A program made the translations under genes and the position numbers. 48,503 bases of DNA from Bacteroidales bacterium (lineage in GTDB: Bacteria > Bacteroidota > Bacteroidia > Bacteroidales > VadinHA17), in assembly GCA_003141415.1 (NCBI GenBank), contig PLLX01000276.1, positions 1 through 48,503 of the forward strand, read 5' to 3'. Every line of letters begins with the position of its first letter. The stretch's first letter is position 1. Positions 2,792-29,243 of the stretch are shown here, piece by piece. A model generated the notes under the pieces. The model made no database searches. It saw only the letters and a program-made list of their open reading frames with translations, and was not told the DNA's origin.

Positions 2792-4735
2792 TCAAGCAGG
2801 CTCCTTTTTGACCAACTTCTCATTATATTTGCCATTACTGCTTTTGTACTCCGACACCATTTCAGAAAATTCTTCAACCACTTGCTCTTTAGACATGCCG
2901 TATAATTTCTTTAAAAGATCATCAATCTTTATTAATATACCTGTATTATCAACCTTTTCAATCTTGGCTATCTTTATCTTTGGATGATATGTTGGGAGTG
3001 TATTCTCATTATCAGAAAGCAATTCTTCGTTAAGTTTTTCACCTGGTCGAAGACCAGTATATACAATCTTAATATCTTTCTCCGGTACCAGACCTGAAAG
3101 TTGTATCATTTGATTAGCCAGATCGATGATCTTTACAGGTTTGCCCATATCAAAAATGAATATTTCACCACCCTTTCCCATAAATCCTGCTTCTAATACC
3201 AGCTCACATGCTTCAGGAATAGTCATGAAATACCTTGTCATTTCATGATGAGTAACTGTTATCGGGCCACCATCCTCAATCTGCTTACTGAACAATGGAA
3301 TAACGGAACCATTTGAACCAAGAACATTCCCAAATCGGGTAATAACAAATTGGGTTTTTATGCCTTCCTGCTGTGACCTCCACTGTACAATCATTTCACA
3401 AATTCTCTTTGATGCTCCCATCACGCTGGTAGGTTTTACCGATTTGTCTGTGGAGATCATAACAAATTTTTTTATATTGTATTTGCACGACAGTTCAGTG
3501 ATAATTTTTGTACCTCCAATGTTTACACGAAATGCTTCATGTGGATTTTCCTCCATAAGTGGTACATGTTTATAGGCTGCAGCATGAAAAACAATATCAG
3601 GGTGAAACTCCTGAAATATAAAATCCATTTTTTCATAGTTTGTAACATCTGCTAAAATCAGCTTAAACTTGGAATGGCTCATGGTCTCATTAAGTTCATT
3701 CTGAAGATGAAACATCGGGGTTTCCGCCTGATCTACCAAGATAGTTTTCTTAACATCAAATCTTGCGAGCTGGCGAACAATTTCGGAACCAATTGATCCG
3801 GCAGCTCCCGTTACCAGCACTATCTTTTTGTTTAATCCTTTCCCAATCAACTCCATATCGAGTTTAATAGAATCTCTTCCTAACAGATCCTTTATTTTTA
3901 CCTTTTGAATCTGGGCCATCTTCAACTGTCCATTCAACCACTTGTCAACAGCGGGTGTTTCAAGTATTTCAACACCTAAGTTCATAGCTGTTTGGATAAT
4001 TTCGCTTTTTTTATTTGATGATATATTTTCAGTTGCAAGAATAAGTGTAACAATTTTATGTTTATGAATAAATGCAGAATTAAGTATATCAGGATTATAT
4101 ACATATATACCGTTCAACTTTTTACCCTGCAATTTCTTCTGGTAATCAAGAAAACCTGAAATCTGATAATTACTTTGTATATCGCTATTAATAAGCCGCT
4201 TAACGATAACTCCCATATCGCCTGCGCCAAAAATCAAGACATTCTTCTTTGATCCAGATGTGCTTATCAGTTGAAATCCAATTTTTATCATAATGCGCAC
4301 AAAGAATAGCAACAACGTAATAGTAACATAATGGATAATAGTAATTGAAATCGGAATGTTTAGAATTTCATTTCCTCGTATCCTTCTATTTAGGAGTGTG
4401 ATACCAATAAGAGAAATAAATGCAGTACTGGTGGCAATAAAAACATTAAAAATATCTATGATAGTTGTATGGCGAATAAGCCCTGAATAAGAACGAAATA
4501 TAAGTCCAAAAATAGCATATATTGCAAGGGCTATGAATGCATGGTTTACAACAAGGATTGGGTCAAATTTCTCAAGTTCGAAGTTATAACGAAGAGCATA
4601 CGCGAAAAGAAAAGTCAGAAATACTGCGGTGTTGTCAAGTCCAGACACTATCCAACTGGGCAGGGAATATTTCCGAAACATTTCTATAGCTTTAAGTCTA
4701 ACTATTTCCCGCCACTTTGGATAGTTTTCAAACAT
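2792..4735 (-). CDS. Membrane nucleotide-sugar 4,6-dehydratase (WbpM/CapD/FlaA1-type, long form)
   Basis: 647 residues, the usual length of the membrane-bound long form. Four hydrophobic segments fill residues about 28-155. A first Rossmann-like domain (FGAGDMGV, 169-176) is followed by the catalytic SDR domain with the NAD motif TGAAGSIGSE (309-318). The active-site region ISTDKSVKP (427-435) is followed by M439 and K443, where this subfamily has Met in place of the SDR Tyr. Members convert UDP-GlcNAc to the 4-keto-6-deoxy sugar (4,6-dehydratase, some also 5-epimerase) at the inner membrane. The product would be a substrate for the DegT aminotransferase encoded just upstream (240-base gap), giving an amino-6-deoxy sugar. 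It is the last gene of the leftward array. The exact substrate cannot be read from sequence. Confidence 0.92.
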   Translation of the reverse strand: MFENYPKWREIVRLKAIEMFRKYSLPSWIVSGLDNTAVFLTFLFAYALRYNFELEKFDPILVVNHAFIALAIYAIFGLIFRSYSGLIRHTTIIDIFNVFIATSTAFISLIGITLLNRRIRGNEILNIPISITIIHYVTITLLLFFVRIMIKIGFQLISTSGSKKNVLIFGAGDMGVIVKRLINSDIQSNYQISGFLDYQKKLQGKKLNGIYVYNPDILNSAFIHKHKIVTLILATENISSNKKSEIIQTAMNLGVEILETPAVDKWLNGQLKMAQIQKVKIKDLLGRDSIKLDMELIGKGLNKKIVLVTGAAGSIGSEIVRQLARFDVKKTILVDQAETPMFHLQNELNETMSHSKFKLILADVTNYEKMDFIFQEFHPDIVFHAAAYKHVPLMEENPHEAFRVNIGGTKIITELSCKYNIKKFVMISTDKSVKPTSVMGASKRICEMIVQWRSQQEGIKTQFVITRFGNVLGSNGSVIPLFSKQIEDGGPITVTHHEMTRYFMTIPEACELVLEAGFMGKGGEIFIFDMGKPVKIIDLANQMIQLSGLVPEKDIKIVYTGLRPGEKLNEELLSDNENTLPTYHPKIKIAKIEKVDNTGILIKIDDLLKKLYGMSKEQVVEEFSEMVSEYKSSNGKYNEKLVKKEPA

Positions 4736-4975: not shown

Positions 4976-6337
4976 TCAAGTAATTATAGCATTTTTAGAT
5001 TTTATAGCATTTTTAGATTTTTTAGCATTTTTAGCAGCTATCTTATTTTTAGCATTTATGGCATTTATGGCATTTATGGCATTTATATCCTTTTGGTCAT
5101 TTAAGTCATTTATATGCTTTACAGCATTAATTTCATTTAATTCATTAAGAGCATTAATAGCACGAAGAACTTTTAAAGAGTTTATGACTCTTCTGGAACT
5201 TATTTCTAGTATAACTTTTAAAGCATCTAAAATCCTCATTCGGTCACTATCTGACATATTTGAACCCGAAGGAAGACATAGTCCATTGGCAAAAAGTTCC
5301 TGGGAAACACCATTTAAATAGGCAGGACAGTATGAAAAAATCGGTTGCAGGTGCATTGGCTTCCACAAAGGTCTGGTTTCAATATTTTCCTTCTCCAATT
5401 CCTCCTGCATATCTTCCCTGTTTATGCCGGTTTTTGATGGATCTATCAGAATTTTTGTAAGCCAATGATTTGAAAAGTATAATTCATTAGGTTCGTCACG
5501 GAATTTTATACCATCATATTTTCCCAGATGTTTCTGGTAAAAGAAATAATTATCTCTTCTTCTTTTTACCCGTTCTTCGATAACCTCCATTTGCCCTCGT
5601 CCTATTCCAGCCAAAACATTGCTCATCCTGTAGTTATAACCAATTTGGTTGTGCTGATAATGAGGGGCAACCTCGCGTGCCTGAGTGGCCAGGAATCTTG
5701 CTTTAATGATCAATTCTTCGTCGTTTGAAATAAGAGCCCCGCCACCTGAGGTAGTTATGATTTTATTTCCATTAAATGACAGTACGCCCATTTTCCCGAA
5801 GCAACCAGCCGGTTTATTGTCATATCGACTTCCAAGAGCTTCAGCTGCGTCCTCAATTACGGGAATATCATAATGGTTAGCTATTTCCATAATCTTACTC
5901 ATATCAGCAGGCATACCATATAAATGAACCGGTATTATGGCTTTTGGTTTTTTTCCTTTTAAAAGCCGGTCCTTTATAGCATATTCCAGTAATTCAGGAC
6001 TCATATTCCAAGTTTCAGGCTCACTATCAATCAGAATAGGTGTCGCCCCAAGGTAAACTATTGGGTTTATGGTTGCTACAAAAGTAAACGATGATGCAAT
6101 AACCTCATCACCAGTTTTTACGCCAAGAATGATAAGAGCCAAGTGAATTGCAGCTGATCCTGAACTCAGGGCAGCAGCGTGTCTTACATTACAATAACTT
6201 GCAATGGTTGCTTCAAAAGCATCAACATTAGCCCCAAGAGGGGCAATCCAATTTGTATCAAACGCCTCCTTGATATAGTTTTGTTCGGTGCCTCCCATAT
6301 GAGGAGAAGAGAGGTAGATTCGATTGTTTTGGGGCAT
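4976..6337 (-). CDS. DegT/DnrJ/EryC1-type sugar aminotransferase with a repeat tail
   Basis: PLP-dependent fold-type-I aminotransferase of about 453 residues, placing an amino group on a keto-sugar nucleotide. The start YLSSPHMGGTEQNYI, the SSGSAAIHLAL phosphate-binding region, the VIEDAAEALGS segment and SFNGNKIITTSGGG with the PLP lysine (K192 from the ATG) are all typical. A TTG extension to 6370 exists, but the ATG at 6337 fits the family start. The normal body ends at about residue 380. An extra 70 residues rich in Asn, Ala, Ile and Lys follow, including an INA triplet run encoded by a 9-base tandem repeat at 5052-5087 and related 17-18-base repeats at 4984-5035. It probably acts on the product of the neighbouring dehydratase. 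Confidence 0.92.
   Translation of the reverse strand: MPQNNRIYLSSPHMGGTEQNYIKEAFDTNWIAPLGANVDAFEATIASYCNVRHAAALSSGSAAIHLALIILGVKTGDEVIASSFTFVATINPIVYLGATPILIDSEPETWNMSPELLEYAIKDRLLKGKKPKAIIPVHLYGMPADMSKIMEIANHYDIPVIEDAAEALGSRYDNKPAGCFGKMGVLSFNGNKIITTSGGGALISNDEELIIKARFLATQAREVAPHYQHNQIGYNYRMSNVLAGIGRGQMEVIEERVKRRRDNYFFYQKHLGKYDGIKFRDEPNELYFSNHWLTKILIDPSKTGINREDMQEELEKENIETRPLWKPMHLQPIFSYCPAYLNGVSQELFANGLCLPSGSNMSDSDRMRILDALKVILEISSRRVINSLKVLRAINALNELNEINAVKHINDLNDQKDINAINAINAINAKNKIAAKNAKKSKNAIKSKNAIIT
5052..5087. repeat. 9-base tandem repeat in the aminotransferase tail
   Basis: Four head-to-tail copies of GCATTTATG, the last with a final A instead of G. They stay in frame and encode INA units on the minus strand. 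A looser repeat (TAGCATTTTTAGATTTT-like) at 4984-5035 encodes the final Lys-Asn-Ala-rich part of the same tail. Confidence 0.85.
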
Positions 6338-7087
6338 TCTTCTATTATTAGAAATTTCTTTATAATCCAATCAGATAACGAGTAATTATTATAGTAAAAA
6401 TAAAATTTAAAAGGATCCAAATCAAGCGCCGTACGCCAGATTACAGGCAAAATGAGCAATGATAAAATATTTTAATCACAGAATTCTAAACGAATAATTA
6501 TGCACATTACCGATTAGTAACAAAAAATGTTGCGTTCGTCAAATTGCAGCTGAAATTTATTAACAAAATGGGGCGACCATGGGTAATAAGATACATTTAG
6601 AGTACCTAAGACAAAGAAAACCAGAGTAATAAAATAATCTAAGAAGCAATTATTTGAACTGGTTAACGGAAATGAGATTTTGACAAAGGCTCAATAACCA
6701 ATGATTAAAAATCCAGAAAATCTGATTGAGTGATCCATAACTCGTTAGATAATGGATGAAGTATATCCAAAAACTTCAAAATATGTATATTTCAGTAGTT
6801 AATGTGGACAAAGGATCTGAGTACCAAAAAAAAGGAACAAATACATCCTGTACTTATTCCCATCTAAAATTTCATCTGTCATAGTGAAAATCCCTGCTTA
6901 TGAATATTCACTTTTTCAACATATCTTTTATTCGCTTCTTTGATCTCAACAAATCTATGTTCCTCAATCAAAGAGGTCTTATTAAGCAATGTTATCAACA
7001 ATTCATCAAAATGTGAGGTAGGGACCTAAATAATTAAAATTTAACCTAAAAGTTAAAGATTTTAGTTAATTGCATTAGGTTGAAACC
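6338..7087. other. 750-base intergenic region, degenerate remnants
   Basis: No intact gene. On the minus strand, from about 7025 to a TGA near 6890, a frame without a start reads SHFDELLITLLNKTSLIEEH and continues for about 30 codons. Its first part matches the segment in the 4.7-5.0 kb gap. The rest is AT-rich with scattered stops in all frames I followed. Next to the TonB remnant lies an inverted repeat (7043-7081). Confidence 0.5.
7043..7081 (-). terminator. Inverted repeat after the TonB-receptor remnant, possible terminator
   Basis: Perfect 7-bp arms AACCTAA (7043-7049) and TTAGGTT (7075-7081) lie just past the stop of the receptor fragment, followed on the minus strand by an AT-rich stretch (AAATTTTAATTATTT). 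The loop is long (25 bases), so the call is weak. Confidence 0.3.
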
Positions 7088-17479: not shown

Positions 17480-17483
17480 GACT

Positions 17484-18941
17484 TTAAAACTGAAAATAAA
17501 TGAACTTGGTTTGCATCCCGCCATAATATAATATTAAAAACAATGCTATATAATAAATCACAAATCTTAGAGATTGATGCTTGAATTTATCGCTGTCCCA
17601 GAGAATTTCTATTTTTTCATATTTATTCTTCATGTCACAGGATATTTTTTCCATGATTAACAAGATGATCAAAATTCCGAATGCTATAGAAAAAGAAAAA
17701 ATATTCACTCTATTATTAATAATCAGTGCTTTGGAAATTGGCAATGAGAAATTTATCCATTTTAATCGATCGAAATACAGCAGACTCGTTTTAAAGTCCG
17801 GAGAGAAAAAGAAAACAAGTGATACTCCATAAAAGAGATAAGTTACAAGACGGCCTATCAATTTTCTCCAATAGGCAGGTATCTTTGAAAAGAAGTCATA
17901 TCTTTTTCTTTTAGTAAAGAATTCAAAATTTATTGCCAGGGCCTGTAACAAACCAAGGACCATGAAATTCCACCCTGCCCCATGCCAAATTCCAAAAAGT
18001 ATCCAGGTAATAAAAACAGCAAAAATTGTTGCAGCGGTTTTCCACTTTCTTAATCTAAAACTCAATTGTTTAAAAACATAATCATTAAACCAGAATGCAA
18101 GAGACATATGGATCCTTTTCCAGAAAGTTGTAACGTTTTCAGAAAAGAAGGGACGGTCAAAATTTGGCAATAAAGTTATGCCATATGTTTTAGCAATACC
18201 CCTGGCAATGTCGGTGTATCCGCAGAAATCAAAATAGATATAGAGAGGTTGAATCAGCATTACTATTAATAGAATACCCCCGCCATACGTACCTATATCA
18301 CTATAGACAGGATTGACTATCAGACTCAACTGATTTGCAATTACATTCTTTTTAACTAAACCCAATAATATAAATCGAAATCCCTCTATAACATTTTGTC
18401 GGTTAAATGTATTCAATTCATTTAGCTGGGGCAGGAAATGATTAGACCGTTCAATAGGTCCGCAAAGAAATTTTGCATAAAATGTAATGTACAAAAGAAA
18501 ATTTATGAATCTTCTCTCTGGTTTCTCCCATCCCATTTTGATATTTATCAGATAACCAAGTCCCTGGAGGGTAAAGAATGAAATTCCAACTGGAATAATA
18601 ATCTCGGAAAGCTTTGAAAAGTGAATATCACTGTTGACCAGTTTAAAAAAAGGATCAATCGCAAATGAAGAATACTTCAATATAACTAATTGCGACAGAT
18701 TTAAAAAAACTCCAATCCTGAAAAGGGTTAGTTTAGATTTGGATTCAGGAATACATATTCCAATGTAATAATTAATTACTGAGTAAACCAGAATATAGAT
18801 CAAGAGCAGATAACTATAGGATGCAATGAACCCACAGCTTAATGTTACCAAAAATATAATTCTATGTTTAGGATTTAAAAGGTAAAATATGAATACAGTT
18901 GTTATTGCAAGCAACGCAAACTTATAGGAAACGATCTCCAT
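17484..18941 (-). CDS. MBOAT-family membrane O-acyltransferase (AlgI/DltB-like)
   Basis: 485 residues with about ten or more hydrophobic segments. It carries the family landmarks: GISFFTLQGLGYLI (119-132), a loop YIYFDFCGYTDIARG (234-248), FWKRIHMSLAFWFNDY (273-288) and ITWILFGIWHGAGW (311-324) with the catalytic His320. MBOAT proteins move acyl groups, usually acetyl, across the inner membrane to extracytoplasmic acceptors. The SGNH gene starts four bases downstream, so the pair forms a polysaccharide O-acetylation module. It is the first gene of a leftward group and faces the plus-strand lyase-like gene across a 402-base divergent gap. Confidence 0.93.
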   Translation of the reverse strand: MEIVSYKFALLAITTVFIFYLLNPKHRIIFLVTLSCGFIASYSYLLLIYILVYSVINYYIGICIPESKSKLTLFRIGVFLNLSQLVILKYSSFAIDPFFKLVNSDIHFSKLSEIIIPVGISFFTLQGLGYLINIKMGWEKPERRFINFLLYITFYAKFLCGPIERSNHFLPQLNELNTFNRQNVIEGFRFILLGLVKKNVIANQLSLIVNPVYSDIGTYGGGILLIVMLIQPLYIYFDFCGYTDIARGIAKTYGITLLPNFDRPFFSENVTTFWKRIHMSLAFWFNDYVFKQLSFRLRKWKTAATIFAVFITWILFGIWHGAGWNFMVLGLLQALAINFEFFTKRKRYDFFSKIPAYWRKLIGRLVTYLFYGVSLVFFFSPDFKTSLLYFDRLKWINFSLPISKALIINNRVNIFSFSIAFGILIILLIMEKISCDMKNKYEKIEILWDSDKFKHQSLRFVIYYIALFLILYYGGMQTKFIYFQF

Positions 18942-19343: not shown

Positions 19344-22300
19344 ATGAAGAAATTTCTGCTTCTCCTCTTGCTTGCTTCAGGTACAGCAGTATTTGCCAAG
19401 ACTTATTATGTTGCACCAACTGGTGGAAGTGATAGTTACGCCGGAACTAATATTGCACAACCATGGGCAACCTGGCAAAAAGCATTTAATACCGCTCAAC
19501 CAGGAGATACTGTTTATTTCAGAGGTGGTGCATGGAAAGGAGCAACTACTGCTCCAATTCTTGATCCTACGATTAGTCATGGTCACAACGGTACACATGC
19601 ACATCCTATTTGTTTTTTTAATTATCCCGGAGAGAAACCTGTATTGGATTGCAGTTCATATACTGCTACCAATGATAAAATTGCATTAGGTATTCAAAAT
19701 GTCACCTATATAAAATTTAGAGGATTAACTGTGGCAAACTGCCAGCAGAAAGTTAGTGGCCAGTGGATTTCAGGAATATCAGTTCTAACTTGTGGCAATT
19801 TATATTTTGATCAGGTATCGGTAACAAATACCGGCGGTTATGGATTTTGGACTTCAGGATATGATACGCTTTACCTTGTCAATTGTGATAGTTATAATAA
19901 TGTTGATTATTTAGCTTCTGATCCAGGCAACAGGTCTGATGGATTTCAGATTGCAAGTGGTAGTGAGGTAGGTGACTATACGTTGATAACAGGATGCAGA
20001 TCGTGGCAAAATTCAGATGATGGTTTTGAAATAAATACAGAACGTGAAGTGCATTTTTTTAATAACTGGTCATTTGGAAATGGCAGACTTGTGTATGGCA
20101 ATGGAATAGGCGTTAAAATTGGGCCGAGTTACTTATCTGATATATCGAAAAGAGAATTTCATAATAATGTTGTTGCTGATAATAAAGGTTTTGGAATTTC
20201 ACACAACTTTTTAGACGAAGGACCCCCAGTAGCATCATTTTATAATAATTCAATATATAAATGTTCAATGGGATTTAATGATGATCCCGGAGATTGGCTT
20301 TGTTCATCCAGAGGTGGCCATACTGTTCATCGTAATAATATAGTATATAATGTAACAGATTATCAGTGTTATCTTGAAGCTTGTGTATATCAACCTGAAG
20401 TCGGCCCAGTTTATAATACTGCAGATCATAACACATGGACAAAATTAATGGTAAGTCCGTTTTGTCAGGTTAATCCTGCATATAATGTTACAGCGGCAGA
20501 TTTTGTAAGTTTGGATACAACGGGAATGTCTGGGCCAAGAGCTTCTGATGGTTCACTGCCTGCTACCAATTTTATGAAATTAGTTTCTGGCAGTGATTTA
20601 ATTGATACCGGAGTTGACGTAGGATTGCCTTTTAATGGATCTGCTCCTGATTTAGGAGCGTTCGAATATGGAGGCGTTACAAATCAAAAACCGGTAACAA
20701 GTATCACTGTTACGGGAGCTGGAGGGTCAACAACAATCACTACTAACCTCGGAACACTTCAACTTTCCGCCTCTGTACTCCCTGCTGATGCCTCGAATAA
20801 GACCGTTACATGGTCAATAGCCAATAATACAGGAAAGGCTTCCATAAATTCGTCAGGACTTGTTACTGCTATTGCCAATGGGACAGTCACGGCGAGAGCG
20901 ACTGCAAAGGATGGTTCTGGCGTTTATGGAACATTGACTATTACAATAACAAACCAATTGATACTGGTTTCAGGTATAACAGTTACTGGTGCAGGAGGAG
21001 CTACTGCAATAAGCACATCTGGAGGGACACTTCAGCTTAGTGCAGTAGTTTTACCTACAAACGCATCTAATATGACAGTAACATGGACAGTAACAAATGG
21101 AACAGGACAGGCAACGATTAGTACCGGAGGTCTTGTCAATGCAGTAACTAATGGGACTGTAACAGCAAGAGCGACAGCAAATGACGCATCAGGAGTTTAT
21201 GGTACACTTTCAATTACGATATCCAATCAGGTGATACTGGTTAATGGTATAACACTAACCGGTGCAGGAGGAGCTACAACTATAACATCAGATAATGGAA
21301 CACTTCAGTTAAGTGCGGGTGTAATGCCGGTAAATGCAACAAATAAGACGGTAACATGGTCGATATCTAGTGGAACTGATAAGGCCTCTATCAGTCAGGC
21401 AGGTCTTGTAACTGCCCTGGATAATGGAACAGCTACGGCAAAAGCCACTGCAAATGATGGTTCAGGTGTTTATGGTACTCTGATAATTACAATATCAAAC
21501 CAGGTTATACCTGTTGCGAGTATAATCGTCACAGGAGCAGGAGGAGCTACTTTAATTACTATTATTGGTGGAACCCTTCAATTAAGTGCGGCTATATTGC
21601 CTTCTAATTCTACAAATAAAACAGTGACATGGTCAATATCAAGTGGGACAGATAAGGCATCCATCAGTTCAACAGGTCTGGTCACTGCCCTGAGTAATGG
21701 AACTGCTGTTGCCAGGGCAATAGCTAATGACGGATCGGGTGTTTATGGCACGCTGACATTAACAATATCTAATCAGGTAATTCCTGTGACAAGTATTTCA
21801 GTTACAGGAGCAGGTGGCGCAACGACAATAAGTACTGATAATGGGACCCTTCAGCTTAGTGCGAATGTTTTACCGGCAGCAGCGACAAATAAAACAGTGA
21901 CATGGTCAATAACTAGTGGTACGGACAAGGCATCAATAAGTTCAACCGGACTCGTAACTGCCCTGGATAACGGAGCTGCTGTTGCGATGGCAACAGCTAA
22001 TGACGGTTCAGGCGTATATGGCACACTAACATTAACGATATCTAATCAGATAATTCCTGTAACAAGTATTTCAGTCACGGGAGCAGGTGGTGCAACAACA
22101 ATAAGTACTGATAATGGAACCCTTCAGCTTATTGCGGCTTTATTGCCTGCAAATGCGACAAATAAGTCAGTGACATGGTCAATAACAAGCGGTTCAGACA
22201 AGGCATCAATAAGTTCCTCGGGACTTATAACTGCCCAGGATAATGGAACTGCTGTTGCCAGGGCAACAGCTAATGACGGATCGGGTGTTTATGGCACACT

Positions 22301-23147
22301 GACATTAACGATATCTAATCAGGTAATTCCAGTAACAAATATTTCAGTCACAGGAGCAGGTGGTTCAACAGCAATAAGTACTGATAATGGAACCCTTCAG
22401 CTTATTGCGGCTTTATTGCCTGCAAATGCGACAAATAAGACAGTGACATGGTCAATAACAAGCGGTTCGGACAAGGCATCAATAAGTTCAACAGGACTTG
22501 TAACTGCCCTGGATAATGGAACTGCTGTTGTCAGGGCAACAGCTAATGACGGATCGGGTGTTTATGGCATACTGACATTTACGATATCTAATCAGGCTAA
22601 TCAAGTAATTCTTGTAACAAGTATTGCAGTCACAGGAGCGGGAGGAACAACAACAATAAGTTCTGATAATGGACCTTTCCAGCTTAGTGCAAACGTATTG
22701 CCTACAAATGCAACAAATAAGACAGTGACTTGGTCAATTACAAGCGGTTCAGACAAGGCGTCAATAAGTCCAACAGGACTTGTCACTATCTCGGATACCG
22801 GAACAGTAACAGCAAAGGCAACTGCCAATGACCTTTCAGAAATTTATGGAACATTTGTTATTACAATATCAGACAATAAGAATTCCCCATCTTATGAAAA
22901 TCTTTCTGTAAAAGTCTATCCTAATCCTGCAAGTGATCATATTAATATAAGGATAGATGCATCAACATTTTCTGCAGACTTTTTACAAATAATAAGTTTG
23001 TCTGGGACAATTTTATTACAGGAAAAACTGGATCATGATCTTAAAGAATTTACTATTCCTTTTAATTTAAAACAAGGCTTATATATTGTGCAAATCAGGT
23101 CAGGTAAAATGACTTTTTTTGCTCAAAAACTGTTAGTGTGCTGGTAA
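19344..23147 (+). CDS. Secreted beta-helix (pectate-lyase-like) protein with eight BIG2 repeats and T9SS tail
   Basis: 1267 residues, the only clear plus-strand gene. A signal peptide (MKKFLLLLLLASGTAVFA) precedes a right-handed parallel beta-helix domain (about 20-440). It opens TYYVAPTGGSDSYAG and continues with AFNTAQPGDTVYFRGG, as in PL9 and other DUF1565-like lyases, and has helix-coil phrases such as SDGFQIASGSEVGDYTLITG and DDGFEINTE. Eight bacterial Ig-like group 2 repeats of about 91 residues follow (V451 to about 1178), each with SVTGAGG, NKTVTWS and DGSGVYGTLT landmarks. The last 85 residues are a T9SS type A sorting domain (SVKVYPNPASDHINI). It may cleave or bind the polymer made by this locus. 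The catalytic Lys/Asp set of PL9 was not verified. Confidence 0.88.
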   Translation: MKKFLLLLLLASGTAVFAKTYYVAPTGGSDSYAGTNIAQPWATWQKAFNTAQPGDTVYFRGGAWKGATTAPILDPTISHGHNGTHAHPICFFNYPGEKPVLDCSSYTATNDKIALGIQNVTYIKFRGLTVANCQQKVSGQWISGISVLTCGNLYFDQVSVTNTGGYGFWTSGYDTLYLVNCDSYNNVDYLASDPGNRSDGFQIASGSEVGDYTLITGCRSWQNSDDGFEINTEREVHFFNNWSFGNGRLVYGNGIGVKIGPSYLSDISKREFHNNVVADNKGFGISHNFLDEGPPVASFYNNSIYKCSMGFNDDPGDWLCSSRGGHTVHRNNIVYNVTDYQCYLEACVYQPEVGPVYNTADHNTWTKLMVSPFCQVNPAYNVTAADFVSLDTTGMSGPRASDGSLPATNFMKLVSGSDLIDTGVDVGLPFNGSAPDLGAFEYGGVTNQKPVTSITVTGAGGSTTITTNLGTLQLSASVLPADASNKTVTWSIANNTGKASINSSGLVTAIANGTVTARATAKDGSGVYGTLTITITNQLILVSGITVTGAGGATAISTSGGTLQLSAVVLPTNASNMTVTWTVTNGTGQATISTGGLVNAVTNGTVTARATANDASGVYGTLSITISNQVILVNGITLTGAGGATTITSDNGTLQLSAGVMPVNATNKTVTWSISSGTDKASISQAGLVTALDNGTATAKATANDGSGVYGTLIITISNQVIPVASIIVTGAGGATLITIIGGTLQLSAAILPSNSTNKTVTWSISSGTDKASISSTGLVTALSNGTAVARAIANDGSGVYGTLTLTISNQVIPVTSISVTGAGGATTISTDNGTLQLSANVLPAAATNKTVTWSITSGTDKASISSTGLVTALDNGAAVAMATANDGSGVYGTLTLTISNQIIPVTSISVTGAGGATTISTDNGTLQLIAALLPANATNKSVTWSITSGSDKASISSSGLITAQDNGTAVARATANDGSGVYGTLTLTISNQVIPVTNISVTGAGGSTAISTDNGTLQLIAALLPANATNKTVTWSITSGSDKASISSTGLVTALDNGTAVVRATANDGSGVYGILTFTISNQANQVILVTSIAVTGAGGTTTISSDNGPFQLSANVLPTNATNKTVTWSITSGSDKASISPTGLVTISDTGTVTAKATANDLSEIYGTFVITISDNKNSPSYENLSVKVYPNPASDHINIRIDASTFSADFLQIISLSGTILLQEKLDHDLKEFTIPFNLKQGLYIVQIRSGKMTFFAQKLLVCW
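20694..22876 (+). repeat. Eight tandem BIG2-encoding repeats of about 273 bases
   Basis: Tandem in-frame units begin near 20694, 20966, 21239, 21512, 21785, 22058, 22331 and 22613. Units 6 and 7 are almost identical, sharing a run of roughly 68 identical bases from AGTACTGATAATGG onward, while units 1, 2 and 8 are more diverged. This pattern suggests recent duplication inside the array and makes the region prone to copy-number change and assembly error. Confidence 0.85.
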
Positions 23148-23257: not shown

Positions 23258-23917
23258 CTATCGCGTAATTTTAGGTACTGCAATAACCTTTTCCTTGAAT
23301 CTGTGAAAAACGACCGAATCATTTGTTATATTCTGATCTACAATCATACCAGCTGTAATCTTGTTCCGACTGCCTAATTTTATGCCAGGAAGAGTGGCGC
23401 TATTAATTCCGAACAGATTTTCGTCTCCAATCTCTGTAAAACCTGAGAAACAAACATTCGGACTGATAAAGTTGAAATTACCAATTATGGTATCATGGCC
23501 AAGACTGCTTCGAGAATTTATAAGTGTAAAATTTCCTATCTTTACATTTGGACCTATATTAGCATTGGGACCGATAATTGTTCCTTCTCCTATTGTTGCG
23601 GATTCTGAAACATATGCTGTACAATGAACAAATGCTACGAACTCAGCACCTTCGGCTTTATACCTGCCAACAAGTAATCTCCTGTATTTCATATTTGCAA
23701 TACCAATTATATAGTATTGTCCTTTAATAACTCTATGATTCCTGACACCTCCCAGGAAAGGCGCCGAGAACATGTACCTCGAATAACTATCAGGATTATC
23801 ATCAAGAAAACCTATAACCTTTAATTCTGTTTTTCCTGTCATTTTAGCAGAGTATTTTAAATATTCATCAATTTCTGCAGCATGGCCACCAGCACCAATT
23901 ATAATCACTTCTTTCAT
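23258..23917 (-). CDS. NeuD/PglD-type sugar O- or N-acyltransferase
   Basis: 219 residues. An N-terminal Rossmann-like PglD domain has VIIIGAGGHAAEI (4-16), followed by a left-handed beta-helix of hexapeptide repeats from about residue 100 (ATIGEGTIIGPNANIGPNVKIG). The catalytic base is likely H141 in SLGHDTIIG. The family uses acetyl-CoA to acylate amino or hydroxyl groups of sugar nucleotides. In this cassette it could instead use an acyl-ACP or acyl-CoA made by the neighbouring KAS III, ACP and SDR, but that is inference. It is the last gene of the acyl cassette, 35 bases after the SDR gene, and is convergent with the lyase-like gene, separated by 110 bases. Confidence 0.9.
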   Translation of the reverse strand: MKEVIIIGAGGHAAEIDEYLKYSAKMTGKTELKVIGFLDDNPDSYSRYMFSAPFLGGVRNHRVIKGQYYIIGIANMKYRRLLVGRYKAEGAEFVAFVHCTAYVSESATIGEGTIIGPNANIGPNVKIGNFTLINSRSSLGHDTIIGNFNFISPNVCFSGFTEIGDENLFGINSATLPGIKLGSRNKITAGMIVDQNITNDSVVFHRFKEKVIAVPKITR

Positions 23918-23952
23918 AATTTGTTTATAATCATTTTAATGACAGTTTTTCT

Positions 23953-24720
23953 TTACCTTGCGAGATATCCTCCATCAACGATCATATTAGTTCCTGTTAT
24001 CCATCTTGATGCATCTGACAGGAGAACTACACAGGCATTTGCAACATCAGCTGGCTGACCAAGACCTAGTGGATGCATTGCTCTGATCTTATTAAGAGAT
24101 TCTTCGTTCCGGCTGTAAATTGCATTTTCCGACATGGGTGTTTCCACAACACCCGGAGAAACAGCATTGACTCTGATTTTTCTCGGAGCTAATTCAACTG
24201 ATATAGATTTGACTGCTGAAACAAGTGCCCCCTTTGTCATTGAATAGAGGGTTTTGCCATTTTCACCCACAACCCCCATAACTGAGGCGATGAAAATAAT
24301 ACTGCCTCCTGATTCTGAAAAATTCGGGGATTTTACAACCTGTCGCGTGAGATTAATAGCACATATAACATTTGTCTGAAAAAACTGTTCCATCTTCTGG
24401 GGTGAAATCGCATTCAATGGCAGAGTACTGGAGATCCCGGCACAATTTATCAAGCCATTAATCCTGCCTGTTTTTTTAACAATCTCCCTGGTTGCTTCTT
24501 CAATTTTGTCATATTCAGTAAGATCAATTGCACAGCTTAAGTGTCTGACTGGTTCTTCCATTTGTTTGAGTGTCTCCTCAAGCCTCGACTGGTCCCTGCC
24601 GAAAAGAGTCACATTTGCACCCATCATGCTGCACGTTATTGCACATTGCCGGCCTATCCCTGATGAAGCACCTGTAATTATTATATTTTTACCCAAAAGA
24701 GAGAATGGATTGAAGATCAT
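23953..24720 (-). CDS. Short-chain dehydrogenase/reductase, FabG-like
   Basis: 255 residues, the standard classical SDR length. The NAD(P) motif TGASSGIG spans 16-23, NCAG 92-95 and the active-site set is S146, Y159 and K163 (in YSMTKGAL). The C-terminal region ends WITGTNMIVDGGYLAR, as in FabG-type 3-oxoacyl-ACP reductases. Lying between a KAS III/ACP pair and an acyltransferase, it may reduce a 3-oxoacyl-ACP to a 3-hydroxyacyl-ACP. A sugar-nucleotide substrate cannot be excluded. The arginine-containing GRDQSR after strand two suggests NADP(H) preference. Confidence 0.9.
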   Translation of the reverse strand: MIFNPFSLLGKNIIITGASSGIGRQCAITCSMMGANVTLFGRDQSRLEETLKQMEEPVRHLSCAIDLTEYDKIEEATREIVKKTGRINGLINCAGISSTLPLNAISPQKMEQFFQTNVICAINLTRQVVKSPNFSESGGSIIFIASVMGVVGENGKTLYSMTKGALVSAVKSISVELAPRKIRVNAVSPGVVETPMSENAIYSRNEESLNKIRAMHPLGLGQPADVANACVVLLSDASRWITGTNMIVDGGYLAR

Positions 24721-24820
24721 GAGTTGCGGGTTAAAAGAAATAAGTTTGAGAATAACAAGTTTTTAGTTGTCAATTTCCGATTGGACCCTCATCAATCAAG
24801 AATTATGGCTCTCGCCACTT

Positions 24821-25879
24821 TTACACTTCAGCAATATCTGTTATATAACATCCATCCATATCAATCACTGCCGTGCCCCATGTCAGCCCAACCCCGAATC
24901 CGCTTAATAGCAGACGCTTATGTTTGTCAAGCTTATTTTTAAGTTCAGATACGATAGTAAGAGGAATAGAAACAGAAGAAGTATTTCCGTATTTCTCAAT
25001 AGTTGAGGGTATTTTCTCTTTTGGTATTTTAAGCTTTTTTGCAAGAAATCCGTTTATATAGCTGTTAGCCTGGTGAAAAACGAAGTAATCAATCGTTGGG
25101 ACCTCAATACCCGAGTATTCAATCAGCCGGTAGAAATCTTTAGGTACTTCTCTTATAACAAAATTGAAGACATCAGCTCCGTTCATATATCCATTCTCAT
25201 CAGAACGTATGTTGCCATATTCGTCAACAACATTCTCCATTACTGTTTCATTGGAACTCATGTTACGGTATCCACCAGCATTTATCTTGATCAGGGACTC
25301 TCTTGAGCCATCAGAGTTAAGTGAGAACCAGCTCTTTCCAAACCTCTCACCTCTTTCTATAAGAGCTGCCACTCCCCCATCTCCGAAGAGGAACCCTGTC
25401 TTACGGTCCTTCTGCGAATAAACTTTCGAGCGGGTTTCTCCGTCAAGGATAAGAACCTTTTTTACTGCTCCCGCTATGATCATGGAGTAAGCCACTGTTA
25501 AGCCGTAAAGGAAAGCTGAGCATCCCAGGTTGATATCAAAAGTAATGGTCGAAGTTGAAAGCTTTAGTCTCTCCTGCAATAAAACGGATGTTGCTGGCAT
25601 CCGGTAATCAGGTGTTTGTGAGATGAATATAAGAAGATCTATTTCGTCCCTGCTAATATTCATCTTATCAAGAAGTTTTGTTGCTGCAGCAAAGCAAAGG
25701 TCAGAGGAGCAAGTGTTTTTATCAGCAAATCTGCGTTCCTTCACACCGATCTTGTCAATTATTTCTTTTATATCTTCCTTTTTAAAATATAGGTCATGCT
25801 CATAGTTATTTATGATCTGTTTGGGAACAGCTGCCGCTATTCCTGATATACCGACATTACAATATGAAATTAATCCCAT
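24821..25879 (-). CDS. 3-oxoacyl-ACP synthase III family protein (FabH-like)
   Basis: 352 residues, slightly longer than housekeeping FabH. The catalytic triad is visible: C120 in DINLGCSAFLYG, H269 in FVFHQANSYIN and N299 in KYGNTSSVSIP. KAS III enzymes condense an acyl-CoA primer with malonyl-ACP. The gene follows the dedicated ACP gene by six bases, so the pair is almost certainly co-expressed and co-functional. It lies inside a polysaccharide locus, not in a fab operon, which points to synthesis of a short acyl substituent (for example 3-oxobutyryl, then 3-hydroxybutyryl after the SDR). The primer is not predictable from sequence. Confidence 0.92.
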   Translation of the reverse strand: MGLISYCNVGISGIAAAVPKQIINNYEHDLYFKKEDIKEIIDKIGVKERRFADKNTCSSDLCFAAATKLLDKMNISRDEIDLLIFISQTPDYRMPATSVLLQERLKLSTSTITFDINLGCSAFLYGLTVAYSMIIAGAVKKVLILDGETRSKVYSQKDRKTGFLFGDGGVAALIERGERFGKSWFSLNSDGSRESLIKINAGGYRNMSSNETVMENVVDEYGNIRSDENGYMNGADVFNFVIREVPKDFYRLIEYSGIEVPTIDYFVFHQANSYINGFLAKKLKIPKEKIPSTIEKYGNTSSVSIPLTIVSELKNKLDKHKRLLLSGFGVGLTWGTAVIDMDGCYITDIAEV

Positions 25880-25885
25880 TGATAA

Positions 25886-26116
25886 CTATTTTGAAGAATT
25901 GCCTGACACCAGATGTATGAGGTTGTCGACAGTTTTATATTTATTAAATTCCTCCATTTCGATTTCTACCCCGAAGTCAGAGTCGAGCATTGCGAGCACT
26001 GAAAGTTCAGTTAATGAACTGTAATTTTCATAATCCCGGAAAGTGTCCAATTGTTTGATTTGTGAAGGTTCCATCTCGAGGGCCTCGGCAAGAGCATTAA
26101 TTAGTTTTTCTTTCAT
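25886..26116 (-). CDS. Dedicated acyl carrier protein
   Basis: 76 residues, acidic, with the four-helix ACP pattern. The 4'-phosphopantetheine site is S34 in ENYSSLTELSVLAML. Most ACPs read DSL here; this one reads SSL, so the Asp before the modified Ser is replaced by Ser. Helix II (TELSVLAMLDSDFGVEIEMEE) is otherwise normal. It starts the KAS III/SDR/acyltransferase group and would carry the acyl chain as a thioester. A holo-ACP synthase is not encoded here and must come from elsewhere in the genome. Confidence 0.88.
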   Translation of the reverse strand: MKEKLINALAEALEMEPSQIKQLDTFRDYENYSSLTELSVLAMLDSDFGVEIEMEEFNKYKTVDNLIHLVSGNSSK

Positions 26117-26217
26117 GATTTTTAGTTTTTGTATTAATAATTATCGTCTTTGGAGAGTGGAATTAACCGACAGTCGAATATACTATTCTTATGTAAGTAC
26201 CTTTAGTCCATATTAGG

Positions 26218-26892
26218 TTAGCCTTCAATAATCCTTACAATCATAAATGCTTCGGCATGTGTAAACCCTACAGTACTTCCTCTCAGATTTGCAAGAGCTT
26301 CAATTGATTTCAATGATCTGGGATTTGGAAATTCCCTCAACTGGCTTTTGTAACATTTCATGGCTTTAAGTTTTGCATCAAATACACCAGAAATGTTTAC
26401 AAAGAAATCCGGGACAAATGCATCATCGCTAAAAGGAGCAGCCCATTCCGTTTCTGACAGGGTTTCATATGAATATATTTTTTTTATTGTGCTGTTTTTA
26501 AGAGGTCTTGTTGCTACCAACCCTGCATTAAAAACCGCTTTATGATCATGGTGTAAATCGCCCCTGAAAGGTAAAAAAACTGTATCAGGCAAGATCTCAT
26601 TAATTACTTCAGATATTGCTAACGACAATTCCGAAACTGAAACAAGATCGAGATCAGGTGCAGAAAAATCGAAGAACCTTGTTCCTGAGACGTCAAGTAG
26701 TTTATGAGCTTGGAGGGCTTCGTGTCTGACATTAAGTACTCTTTCCTCAGAGTACATCCCTTTTTTCCCTCGTGTCATTATTAAAACCCATACCTCGTTT
26801 TGCTGAGAGGTAAGTTTTTTTATTATTCCGCCACAACCTAAAACCTCATCATCCGGATGTGGTGCTATTACCAAAATTTTGCTTCCGTTCAT
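26218..26892 (-). CDS. PIG-L/LmbE-family deacetylase
   Basis: 224 residues. The zinc-binding motif is APHPDDEVLGCGG (10-22, with H12, D14, D15) and the second metal/catalytic site is HHDH (114-117). The family removes N-acetyl groups from GlcNAc-type substrates. In this cassette it may expose a free amine that the acyl machinery next door then re-acylates; this is inference from order. It lies 11 bases after the DegT-like gene and 101 bases before the ACP gene. Confidence 0.92.
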   Translation of the reverse strand: MNGSKILVIAPHPDDEVLGCGGIIKKLTSQQNEVWVLIMTRGKKGMYSEERVLNVRHEALQAHKLLDVSGTRFFDFSAPDLDLVSVSELSLAISEVINEILPDTVFLPFRGDLHHDHKAVFNAGLVATRPLKNSTIKKIYSYETLSETEWAAPFSDDAFVPDFFVNISGVFDAKLKAMKCYKSQLREFPNPRSLKSIEALANLRGSTVGFTHAEAFMIVRIIEG

Positions 26893-26903
26893 GTTTATAT
26901 CAA

Positions 26904-27878
26904 CTAAATGCTTACTCTAACAATATCATGAATATGGTTTATCATTTGTTCATTGTACCGCTGATCAACAGGTATTGGTATCATAAACTTTGACATCCAG
27001 CCTTCAAATGAAGACTCAGGAACTTCTGAAAGAACATGCGTCCACCATCTGCCAGTATAAATATGGTTCTTTTTCAGTGTATCAATAAGTTCGGATTTTT
27101 CAATTACAAGTGGATATACCATAGGAACACAATCCTTATCAATAAACATTGTTGGATCGATTCTGTTAATATTTTTAAATAAGCTATTGGCATATCTAAA
27201 GTTCCTTTTTCTGATGTTTTTTATACCTGAATAATCGACACTGTTTAATAGAGACTTTGTTAGCAGCGACATTTTAAGAACACCGGAATTATCAATTCTC
27301 TCCTCATTTTTCATACGTTCACCATATATTGCGCTTGAGCCATATTCGATTCTTTTAAGTAAGAATGAGGCAGTATCAGAAGAAAAATCCTGTTCATATC
27401 CTTCAGTTAATTTACTGGCGTCATTACCAATAACATAGCATCCATCCGGTAATCCAAAAAACTTTCGGGGGGAATATACATTATAACTCCTTTCTGTTGG
27501 TTTTGAATAAAAAGCAGCCGAGTTATCAATAATTACATTTTCAAACCGGCTTGCCAGAATTCTGATTTTACTGGCTGATAAAAATCCGAAATAGTTAACA
27601 AGCAGAATTGCATGGCCATCTTCCTGCTTAAAGTTTTCGGGCTCAAATTCATGACTAATAAAATATGTTTTGACTCTGATCCTATTTTGAACAAGGAACT
27701 TTTTTACAGTGGGACATAAGTAAAATGGAATATGTATAGAATTGCAGTTCAATAATCTGCAGGCATGATAAATTCCGGCCCGAGCTGAATTAAGCCGTGC
27801 AATATTTTCTTTCCCCTGATAGTATTCACCCGTATTTCTCAGATCCAGTTCAATGAAGCTCCCAATTTCCATGTTCAT
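26904..27878 (-). CDS. DegT-like PLP fold protein of unknown substrate
   Basis: About 324 residues with a compact fold-type-I aminotransferase layout. ARLNSARAGIYHACRLL is the substrate/cofactor region, IPFYLCPTVK follows it, VIIDNSAAF takes the place of the usual Asp strand, and VYSPRKFFGLPDGCYV carries the candidate PLP lysine (K139 from the ATG). Sequence drift from canonical DegT is large, and the final domain is short. The ATG at 27878 overlaps the WbqC stop as ATGA, which favours it over the in-frame TTG at 27911. Such WbqC-linked proteins occur in O-antigen and capsule loci. It may transfer an amino group to a sugar or an acyl precursor. Confidence 0.7.
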   Translation of the reverse strand: MNMEIGSFIELDLRNTGEYYQGKENIARLNSARAGIYHACRLLNCNSIHIPFYLCPTVKKFLVQNRIRVKTYFISHEFEPENFKQEDGHAILLVNYFGFLSASKIRILASRFENVIIDNSAAFYSKPTERSYNVYSPRKFFGLPDGCYVIGNDASKLTEGYEQDFSSDTASFLLKRIEYGSSAIYGERMKNEERIDNSGVLKMSLLTKSLLNSVDYSGIKNIRKRNFRYANSLFKNINRIDPTMFIDKDCVPMVYPLVIEKSELIDTLKKNHIYTGRWWTHVLSEVPESSFEGWMSKFMIPIPVDQRYNEQMINHIHDIVRVSI

Positions 27879-28582
27879 TTCATATCCTGATTTTGTAAGA
27901 CTCTGTCCCAATCATATCCGCAATTCATGAAAAAATCAAGGGATGAAACATTCGACAGGAAATTCTGCCCAAGCTGCGGATACTTAAACGGTTTAAAAAC
28001 CGAATATCTCAGTTCAATGCCCGATGATTTAAAGTCCTCTTCTTTCTGATACACTTTTGCTCCCGTGCCAGAATAATAAATATCTCCTTCCAAAACTTTA
28101 CAGATTTCAATAATCTTTTCTGTTTTTATCAGATTAATGTTAAAAACAGATGATAATATAAACTCAGCTTTTATTCCAAGCCTGGTGGCAAAAAATTCAA
28201 TAAAAGCGGTATTAAGAGTCACTATATCTGAATACTCTTTCATGATGAGCCAACTGTAGTCATTAAAAATATCTTTAAAGAACCTTGCATTATGATAATT
28301 TGATTCTATTAACTTTAAGTGCCTTTCTTTCCACCCCAGTTCATTTTTAGGACGAACCTGATTGATTTTATCCCCTAAACTTTGTTGAACAGGATATTTT
28401 AGTCTGAACACCCCTGCAGCAGATTTAATATAAGTATAATTATGCATGCCTTCATTTGAATACTGAGCATCATCAAGAAATACAAATATGTCAGATTGAA
28501 AAATTTTATAGAAATATCCCAGCCATGGAAGATAATTTGGTTGATGAATTGCAATTATTTTGTTTTCTTTCTCAAAGCCCAT
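27875..28582 (-). CDS. WbqC-like family protein
   Basis: About 235 residues. The start IIAIHQPNYLPWLGYFYKI and the following VFLDDAQYSNEGMHNYTYI are the family signatures (PF08889). WbqC proteins are found in O-antigen and capsule loci, often next to acyl- or aminotransferases. Their reaction is not settled; roles in amide-bond formation on sugars have been proposed. An in-frame GTG lies two codons upstream of the chosen ATG. It is coupled to the DegT-like gene by an ATGA overlap and follows the sugar transferase by 19 bases. Confidence 0.9.
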   Translation of the reverse strand: MGFEKENKIIAIHQPNYLPWLGYFYKIFQSDIFVFLDDAQYSNEGMHNYTYIKSAAGVFRLKYPVQQSLGDKINQVRPKNELGWKERHLKLIESNYHNARFFKDIFNDYSWLIMKEYSDIVTLNTAFIEFFATRLGIKAEFILSSVFNINLIKTEKIIEICKVLEGDIYYSGTGAKVYQKEEDFKSSGIELRYSVFKPFKYPQLGQNFLSNVSSLDFFMNCGYDWDRVLQNQDMK

Positions 28583-28601
28583 ACCCACCTAACCAAAAGA
28601 T

Positions 28602-29243
28602 TTATACTTTCCTATAGATATTATCAGATCTAAAGAAAAACAGAAAGGAAGCAAAGAAAAGCTTCAAATCGTATGAAAATGAGTAATTTTGAACATATTC
28701 CACATCGATAGGAATATTAATCTCCCAATCATGGATTTCCCTGCACCTCACCTGGGCCAGGCCACTGATTCCTGGTTTTACCAGAAATCGTTGATACTCA
28801 AACGCGTTATATTCATCAATTCTTTTTGGGAAATAAGTAACAGGAGGTCTGGGTCCTATAAAACTCATATCGCCACTCAGAATATTAAACAACTGAGGTA
28901 ATTCATCAATACTCGTTTTCCTGATAAAACGACCGACTCTAGTGATTCTGGGATCATTCTCATAAAGTTTATTTCCGGTATTCTTTTTATTATTAATAAT
29001 CATTGAGCGGAACTTATATACTTTAAATATGTTCCCGTATCGACCCAGCCTTTCCTGTACAAAAAATGCAGGGCCTTTTGTATTAAGTTTAATGCCAATC
29101 GTAACAATTATGAATAATGGTGATAGTATTATTATTGCAATTAATGCCAGGAGCCAGTCACATAAAGGCTTAAAAAAAGATTTATAAAAATTCCATCGGG
29201 AATTATCTAACAGAACCTCGTTATTTAAATCTCCCGTGTTCAT
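28602..29243 (-). CDS. Initiating polyprenyl-phosphate sugar-1-phosphate transferase (PglC-like short form)
   Basis: 213 residues, the short monotopic form. One hydrophobic segment (about 30-50, WLLALIAIIILSPLFIIVTI) is followed by the catalytic region: VQERLGRYGNIFKVYKFRSM (62-81), DPRITRVGRFIRKTSIDELP with the D113-E114 pair, LSGDMSFIGPRPPV and VKPGISGLAQV. The family moves a sugar-1-phosphate from a UDP-sugar to undecaprenyl phosphate at the cytoplasmic face, starting repeat-unit assembly. It overlaps the upstream GT-like gene as ATGA. No other initiating transferase is seen in the window, so this is probably the locus initiator. Confidence 0.94.
   Translation of the reverse strand: MNTGDLNNEVLLDNSRWNFYKSFFKPLCDWLLALIAIIILSPLFIIVTIGIKLNTKGPAFFVQERLGRYGNIFKVYKFRSMIINNKKNTGNKLYENDPRITRVGRFIRKTSIDELPQLFNILSGDMSFIGPRPPVTYFPKRIDEYNAFEYQRFLVKPGISGLAQVRCREIHDWEINIPIDVEYVQNYSFSYDLKLFFASFLFFFRSDNIYRKV

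Follow-up and report, generated by a model that had tools for sequence, protein, structure and literature searches.

Two putative amide-making modules side by side in a polysaccharide locus of a Bacteroidales bacterium

The window analysed here is a contig of 48,503 nucleotides (PLLX01000276.1) from a Bacteroidales bacterium of the VadinHA17 lineage, whose genome is assembled in 279 contigs and is 81.75% complete. A polysaccharide locus lies on its minus strand, and inside it seven intact and consecutive open reading frames (ORFs) occupy positions 28588-23258. In the order of the minus strand they encode a WbqC-family protein, a diverged DegT-like protein, a PIG-L deacetylase, an acyl carrier protein (ACP), a 3-oxoacyl-ACP synthase III (KAS III), a short-chain dehydrogenase/reductase (SDR) and a NeuD-type acyltransferase. 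The explanation of the whole that we favour, and regard as reasonably probable, is that two amide-making modules stand side by side in this locus: a core of ACP, KAS III, SDR and NeuD, and a second module based on PIG-L and WbqC. The genes are as follows.

27875..28588, minus strand: WbqC-family protein, 237 aa (PF08889)
26904..27878, minus strand: DegT-like protein of pyridoxal phosphate (PLP) fold type, diverged, 324 aa (predicted fold)
26218..26892, minus strand: PIG-L/LmbE-type de-N-acetylase (PF02585)
25886..26116, minus strand: private ACP (PF00550)
24821..25879, minus strand: cassette-type KAS III (PF08541, PF08545, NF006829)
23953..24720, minus strand: putative FabG-like 3-oxoacyl-ACP reductase, an SDR (PF13561)
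23258..23917, minus strand: NeuD/PglD/VioB-type hexapeptide N-acyltransferase, proposed user of the acyl-ACP (PglD_N and Hexapep)

The original prediction, made from the sequence alone, had listed seven same-strand genes in this order, and each of them was found as an intact minus-strand ORF. The stop of WbqC and the start of the DegT-like gene share ATGA at 27878-27875, and ACP and KAS III are 6 bases apart, both as had been claimed; the other gaps are 11 bases (DegT-like/PIG-L), 101 bases (PIG-L/ACP), 100 bases (KAS III/SDR) and 35 bases (SDR/NeuD). The start previously given for WbqC corresponds to an in-frame ATG at 28582, whereas the ORF begins with GTG at 28588. Six of the seven proteins passed the curated Pfam cut-offs, the exception being the DegT-like protein. 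All seven genes recur in three further loci, L114 (a Lentimicrobium metagenome-assembled genome, MAG), L117 (Bacteroidales UBA5281) and L096 (a Paludibacteraceae MAG), with an initiating transferase gene inserted in each set and NeuD shifted to before ACP in L096. Since the core recurs in many genomes and the complete set in these loci, the grouping exceeds chance, and the gene-order search across Bacteroidota that had been proposed found neither core nor set confined to one genome. Promoter-like sites in the cassette (18 versus 20.4 expected) were not in excess and terminator-like sites numbered 6 versus 3.8 expected (sd 1.9); neither count was used as evidence.

The four core proteins match their families and keep the residues required for catalysis. 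The ACP scored 34.2 bits against PF00550, above the cut-off, and its phosphopantetheine Ser34 is kept in all 83 rows of the alignment. KAS III reached 258.1 bits against NF006829 (cut-off 249), with the triad Cys120-His269-Asn299 kept in 137 of 137 rows. The genome has two more KAS III genes at other places, 33% and 29% identical to the cassette KAS, the first being taken as FabH; that the cassette enzyme is an ordinary FabH was hence rejected. The SDR matched PF13561 with E 1.6e-56 and its Ser146, Tyr159 and Lys163 are kept in 104, 108 and 108 of 111 rows, respectively. It lies under every NCBIfam cut-off among its 25 best matches, FabG models included, and 3-oxoacyl-ACP is therefore a presumed substrate. 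The NeuD-type protein is above the Pfam cut-offs for PglD_N and Hexapep, falls about 8 bits below that of TIGR03570 (152.6 versus 160.8 bits) and belongs to an alignment in which His141 is kept in 79 of 79 rows. Its nearest solved structure is VioB 7txp, and perosamine N-acetyltransferase and PglD-type acetyltransferases are also among its closest solved relatives.

The recurrence of the core was analysed in the best 80 of 557 confirmed named-genome loci (L074-L153), picked by KAS likeness, some of them on short contigs; L078 and L104 are from one genome. Several loci obtained by different routes, for example L060 and L075, are apparently the same records, and only L074-L153 enter the count of 80. 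Neighbouring genes were labelled with profiles and BLAST libraries built from relatives of the window proteins, and with Pfam only where stated. An ACP gene lies within four same-strand genes of KAS in 76 of the 80 loci, directly adjoining it in 59; SDR is found within four genes in 70 and NeuD in 57. The three are all present at that distance in 49 loci, which bears out the earlier proposal of a module of the 3-hydroxyacyl-ACP type built from KAS III, a private ACP and an SDR, usually accompanied by NeuD. An initiating transferase stands within six genes of KAS in 38 loci and an aminotransferase anywhere in the locus in 38. Most hosts belong to Bacteroidota by their record titles; the rest are Ignavibacteria, Chlorobi, Balneolaceae and a few members of other phyla. 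Cassette-type KAS (E ≤ 1e-75) was detected in 21 of the 395 phylum genomes sampled, in 8 of 171 genera, and the core is therefore a patchy, portable module across the phylum. Among 117 genomes of the family, KAS copies 75-80% identical to that of the window were found at four other sites, two in G029 and one each in G094 and G101, where ACP immediately precedes KAS, SDR follows it and NeuD comes last, with a glycosyltransferase between SDR and NeuD in L059. In two of these cassettes, L057 and L060, PIG-L and WbqC precede ACP. The other two, L058 and L059 (19.9 kb), are followed by an aminotransferase and a dehydratase, and no PIG-L, WbqC or DegT-like gene was detected in them.

A second KAS gene lies within four genes of the first in 29 of the 80 loci, and cassettes with several KAS genes include L062-L065, L086, L090, L105 and L136-L140. 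By analogy, these may make longer groups, such as the 3,5-dihydroxyhexanoyl of Flavobacterium psychrophilum. Cultured hosts of a cassette with one KAS include Lewinella cohaerens DSM 23179 (L113) and Geofilum rhodophaeum (L098). ORFs of 123-124 aa were seen in or near the cassettes of L074 (11101-11475), L063 (4285-4659) and L117 (3835-4206); those of L074 and L063 begin alike, one of the three lies between KAS and SDR, and we presume all three to be four-helix-bundle proteins. Large ORFs that by their sequence resemble condensation domains of peptide synthetases stand beside KAS and ACP genes in L062 (2034-5246) and L066 (11467-13806).

The deacetylase behaves differently. The PIG-L protein scored 86.4 bits against PF02585, and His12, Asp14, Asp15 and His117 are kept in 13 of 14 rows, the remaining row being gapped. 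In the original prediction this enzyme supplied the amine for the core acyl group. In the best KAS loci, however, PIG-L lies within four genes of KAS in only 8 of the 80, a same-strand copy being missing in 72; WbqC and the DegT-like gene are found within six genes in 5 and 3 loci, respectively. A second sample was drawn independently of KAS from the 35 of 395 phylum genomes with a PIG-L match at E ≤ 1e-25. It consisted of 34 loci, the window's own having been dropped, in stretches of 3.8 to 13.5 kb to which any absence of a gene refers. ACP and KAS were absent from 33 of these 34 stretches, the exception being L264. The proposed link from PIG-L to the core acyl group is thus probably wrong, and PIG-L and WbqC look like a second module, separable from the ACP-KAS core.

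What adjoins PIG-L instead, in part of the loci, is a presumed acylating gene. The immediate neighbour of PIG-L is a formyltransferase in 12 of the 34 loci and WbqC in 4, never both together, and ACP and KAS were found in none of these 16 stretches; the formyltransferase labels were checked in Pfam and confirmed in 10 of 10 cases. The counts were compared with 5000 shuffles of gene order within loci, in which kinship among loci is uncorrected. The expectation was 3.77 for the formyltransferase and 4.95 for either partner, and none of the 5000 shuffles reached the observed 16. Other neighbours showed no excess (aminotransferase 1 versus 3.82, dehydratase 2 versus 2.37, NeuD 4 versus 2.85) or, as the initiating transferase, a slight one (4 versus 1.50, reached in 235 of 5000 shuffles). 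In L267 and L268 an initiating transferase, a formyltransferase, PIG-L and NeuD stand in a row without ACP-KAS-SDR; the layout is that of the window, with the formyltransferase replacing WbqC and the DegT-like gene. Within the KAS loci, the place that WbqC and the DegT-like gene take in the window is held by a formyltransferase in L078 and a GNAT protein in L093, and by WbqC but no DegT-like gene in L074 (with a GNAT gene nearby) and L075. The window protein falls in a clade of 14 (support 82/81) when 43 PIG-L proteins are placed in a tree. Looking up to three genes away from PIG-L in this clade, WbqC is the acylating gene in 7 cases, a formyltransferase in 4 and GNAT in 1, while 2 have none of the three. 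Because a single clade carries WbqC, formyltransferase or GNAT, we read the pattern as one deacetylase type that would have several interchangeable acylating partners. Searches of open-access papers listed no apparently relevant report on PIG-L with a formyltransferase or N-acyltransferase in polysaccharide synthesis.

WbqC itself is a clear member of its family (PF08889, 200.6 bits versus a cut-off of 21.3), one that has a match in 209 of the 395 sampled genomes of the phylum. Of the open-access papers searched, 12 contain the name WbqC, though never in the title or abstract, and none contains PF08889; an assigned function did not come up in these searches. A sequence search against solved structures gave nothing useful. 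The predicted model (30 rows) has a pLDDT of 95.7, and its Foldseek search against solved structures gave 0 matches at E ≤ 0.001. Among the weaker matches, the first and some others had low probability; the second, which is also the most plausible, is BshC 4wbd (probability 0.99, E 0.014, TM 0.46), and tyrosyl-tRNA synthetases of class I and cytidylyltransferases, which are nucleotidyltransferases, ranked lower. In many loci WbqC stands beside PIG-L, within three genes of it, or beside an aminotransferase. A WbqC-centred sample covered 20 of 30 places; left out were C279 (own genome), G376, G317, G233, G422, G427, G464, G437, G214 and G411, of which G376, G317, G233 and G422 were already covered by other loci and the last five were dropped merely to limit the sample to 20. 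An aminotransferase is directly beside WbqC in 6 of these 20 loci, NeuD in 6, and an ACP was seen in 2. Such neighbours still fit an enzyme acting on sugar amines, and we propose that WbqC would transfer an N-acyl group to the amine freed by PIG-L. More specifically, and as a tentative suggestion on which we would rather bet against than for, WbqC could be a new type of amide-forming N-acyltransferase with a fold like that of nucleotidyltransferases and tRNA synthetases, which together with PIG-L swaps the acetyl group of an amino sugar and is interchangeable with the formyltransferase and GNAT versions.

The match to BshC raises a particular version of this second module. In bacillithiol synthesis BshB, a PIG-L-family deacetylase, frees an amine, and BshC then adds cysteine to it as an amide. 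PIG-L and WbqC might accordingly be a polysaccharide version of that pair, making an amide with an amino acid such as cysteine, a special case that we hold to be unlikely. It agrees with the order of the two reactions, a deacetylation followed by an amide on the freed amine, with the fold match of WbqC to BshC, and with BshB1 being the best NCBIfam model for PIG-L. Moreover, BshC was not found in the window genome or in 20 relatives, so PIG-L is unlikely to serve bacillithiol, a candidate role that is thereby weakened; in a phylum sample of 99 genomes BshC was missing from the window genome alone and present in the other 98, and the lineage may lack bacillithiol. However, the BshB1 score of PIG-L (87.3 bits) is far below the cut-off (182.5), the match to 4wbd has its equals among class I tRNA synthetases and nucleotidyltransferases, and a sequence relationship of WbqC to BshC was not supported, a profile comparison (hhalign) with 15 BshC proteins giving a probability of 0.2%, inside the 0.1-0.9% of ten other families. 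The likeness predicted from the model is thus a weak fold lead only: PIG-L and WbqC may work like the BshB-BshC pair, whereas membership in it is not supported by sequence.

Matches to the WbqC family fall into two apparent grades, a polysaccharide type above about 150 bits and many weaker ones of about 100-120 bits (for instance G000:C222, L003/L004), perhaps a housekeeping paralogue. WbqC-like proteins are also encoded in a collection of viral contigs (L154-L233), where 119 of 197 pattern matches were confirmed, with at most 46% identity to the window WbqC, and five viral proteins (BFVD) match the WbqC model at E ≤ 0.001. In L096 a HpcH/HpaI aldolase gene (PF03328, 5333-6139) directly precedes WbqC and the DegT-like gene; the aldolase may make the acid used by WbqC, a hint of an unusual donor. 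Another locus of the same genome as the window, L022 (G000:C279, 5446-10476), contains genes for NeuD, an AMP-binding ligase (PF00501), SDR, ACP, WbqC and an aminotransferase, and there the acid is probably not made by a KAS but activated by the ligase.

The DegT-like protein had been labelled as a PLP protein. It has no Pfam or NCBIfam match at E ≤ 0.001, the PF01041 profile included, and a profile of it with three relatives found nothing in the PDB at E ≤ 1; what stands of the label comes from the predicted model (pLDDT 63), whose best Foldseek matches are DegT/DnrJ/EryC1/StrS aminotransferases (E 2.0e-7, TM about 0.5), and from a putative PLP lysine that all 9 aligned rows share, including two distant ones. 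The gene is directly beside WbqC in L014, L015, L096, L114, L117 and L338 and occurs without WbqC in L016; WbqC stands beside PIG-L without it in L057, L060 and L074. A possible role of the DegT-like protein is the preparation of the donor for WbqC or the modification of its acceptor.

The sugar to be acylated could be supplied and loaded by three further genes of the window.

28602..29243, minus strand: PglC-like initiating sugar-phosphate transferase (PF02397, 207.2 bits)
4976..6370, minus strand: PglE/LegC-type sugar aminotransferase, which would supply the 4-amine (PF01041, 332.9 bits)
2792..4735, minus strand: PglF/FlaA1-type UDP-GlcNAc 4,6-dehydratase (PF02719, 387.8 bits)

The nearest solved structure of the first is the N,N'-diacetylbacillosaminyl-1-phosphate transferase 8e37 (E 1.2e-37). 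The aminotransferase scored 403.1 bits for the LegC family, just under the cut-off of 420, and its nearest solved structures are 1o61 and 4ztc, which we take to be PglE (database titles only 'aminotransferase' and 'Aminotransferase homolog'). The dehydratase is nearest to WlaL 5bju (E 2.7e-85), presumably PglF (database title only 'WlaL protein'). In the mechanism that we propose, KAS III would join malonyl carried by the private ACP to a short acyl-CoA starter, and the 3-keto group of the acyl-ACP would then be reduced by the SDR. The NeuD/PglD-type enzyme would move the 3-hydroxyacyl group onto the 4-amine of a sugar of the UDP-Qui2NAc4N (bacillosamine) type, made by the PglF-like dehydratase and the PglE-like aminotransferase. 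The latter is the more likely source of the amine for the core acyl group, rather than PIG-L, and the PglC-like transferase encoded next door would load the sugar onto the lipid carrier. As one KAS and one reductase give 3-hydroxybutanoyl as the simplest product, we infer that the core probably yields a 3-hydroxybutanoyl amide on the 4-amine, and KAS may take other starters. In the second module, PIG-L would strip a repeat-unit sugar of an N-acetyl group, after which WbqC would attach another kind of acyl group to the amine, as the formyltransferase or GNAT proteins seem to do in sister loci.

Several observations weigh against this explanation. Only 2 of the 20 WbqC-centred loci have PIG-L directly next to WbqC, the adjacency of the two in the PIG-L sample is alone weaker (4 versus 1.18 expected, reached in 98 of 5000 shuffles), and 3 of its 4 cases come from one genus; 18 of the 34 PIG-L loci have neither formyltransferase nor WbqC directly adjoining. 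The PIG-L clade is moderately supported, the branch of L096 is long and unsure, and L057 and L060 are one genome. In the window the DegT-like gene sits between WbqC and PIG-L, and its product may be no enzyme. The aminotransferase and dehydratase are 17 kb from the cassette, past a plus-strand gene, and because of this their link to it is drawn from the sister loci. NeuD could use acetyl-CoA, and in L022 of the same genome WbqC is directly beside ACP. What can be read at the sequence level is which genes and catalytic residues are present, that they recur, that the modules are separable and that PIG-L changes its partner; every substrate, every product and the chemistry of WbqC are inferred.

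Some of these points would suit the single pathway of the original prediction, in which PIG-L frees the amine and WbqC or NeuD adds to that same amine the hydroxyacyl group made by KAS III, ACP and SDR. The seven genes are consecutive in the window and are found together in L096, L114 and L117, L264 holds ACP and KAS besides PIG-L, and the arrangement of L022 points the same way. We consider it rather improbable in view of the 72 KAS loci without PIG-L and the 33 PIG-L stretches without ACP or KAS, and of the cassettes of L058 and L059, complete in ACP, KAS, SDR and NeuD. Quite improbable is that WbqC uses the private acyl-ACP while NeuD is an ordinary acetyltransferase fed by acetyl-CoA, a division of labour suggested by the solved acetyltransferase relatives of NeuD, by L022, from whose adjacency it follows that WbqC may take acyl-ACP, and by L333, where WbqC shares a locus with ACP and AMP-ligases, but opposed by the rarity of WbqC near KAS and of ACP near WbqC in the samples above, and by the requirement for vioB in Pseudomonas syringae described below. 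Since ACP-KAS-SDR-NeuD occurs mostly without WbqC, NeuD would be the usual taker of the acyl group.

Around these genes, a glycosyltransferase of the WaaS/CpsH family is encoded upstream of the PglC-like gene, and the genes further upstream, read from their translations and mostly unscanned, appear to complete a Wzx/Wzy-type locus. An ORF of 1267 aa lies on the plus strand (19344-23147) just downstream of NeuD; its translation suggests a secreted protein that has several Ig-like repeats resembling one another and, at the C-terminus, a tail like a type IX secretion signal. At 16508-18941 an ORF whose translation resembles a membrane-bound O-acyltransferase is followed by a SGNH/DltD-like ORF without Pfam match; these possibly O-acylate the same polysaccharide.

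The two modules would have different consequences. The core indicates that a custom acyl-amino-sugar of the F. psychrophilum type is the product of a portable cassette in Bacteroidota and beyond, so that counting the KAS genes may make it possible to predict how such polysaccharides are acylated. From the second module WbqC, a widespread family, would gain a concrete and testable job, and polysaccharide synthesis would be expected to include a step in which an acetyl group is removed and replaced, the acylating partner being interchangeable. If WbqC forms a swap unit beside the ACP-KAS module, one sugar could carry two different tailored amides.

The closest known system is the set of O-polysaccharide R-group genes of F. 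psychrophilum (PMC6519341; GenBank MK214915), also a member of Bacteroidota. Its acyl-amino-sugar has been determined and the enzyme set proposed: wfpC and wfpE (KAS), wfpD (ACP), wfpF (reductase) and wfpG (PglD homolog) would build the 3,5-dihydroxyhexanoyl group, to be placed on UDP-Qui2NAc4NH2 from pglE and pglF, with wfpB as the PglC homolog. The window shares with it, by the gene descriptions in the paper rather than by alignment, the private ACP, the KAS, the putative 3-ketoacyl reductase and the PglD homolog for the acyl group of Qui2NAc4NR, as well as the PglE, PglF and PglC-type partners. It differs in having one KAS instead of two and in PIG-L, WbqC and the DegT-like protein, which the Discussion and the accompanying passages of that paper do not mention. 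The viosamine island of P. syringae (PMC3927599) comprises vioS (KAS III), vioR (reductase), acp, vioB and vioA and is described as leading to a 4-(3-hydroxybutanamido) sugar; deletion of vioR removed the modified viosamine, and the hydroxybutanoyl sugar needs vioB. As proposed for the window there are one KAS III, a ketoreductase, an ACP, a VioB-type transferase and an aminotransferase, but dTDP-viosamine is used on flagellin, not in a Wzx/Wzy-type polysaccharide, a methyltransferase is present, and the gene list given there has no PIG-L or WbqC. The qhbCB/gdr module of Acinetobacter baumannii leads to the same final sugar type, a 3-hydroxybutanoyl amide on QuiNAc4N (QuiNAc4NHb; PMC9676051), the term 'acyl carrier' being absent from the main text of that paper. 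Enterobacterial flagellin islands with ACP and FabG genes (PMC4875605), a review of flagellin glycosylation (PMC3958885) and a paper on bacillithiol (PMC12719100) added little in the parts relevant here. The original prediction knew of no described pathway with this set of genes. For the core that no longer holds: because the wfp genes of F. psychrophilum and the vio genes of P. syringae use the same enzyme set, the core pathway is of an already described kind. The full seven-gene set may be undescribed, and no description of it was found in the open-access literature, as far as these sources extend. The new part is therefore the separable PIG-L module with its changing partners, together with the role suggested for WbqC.

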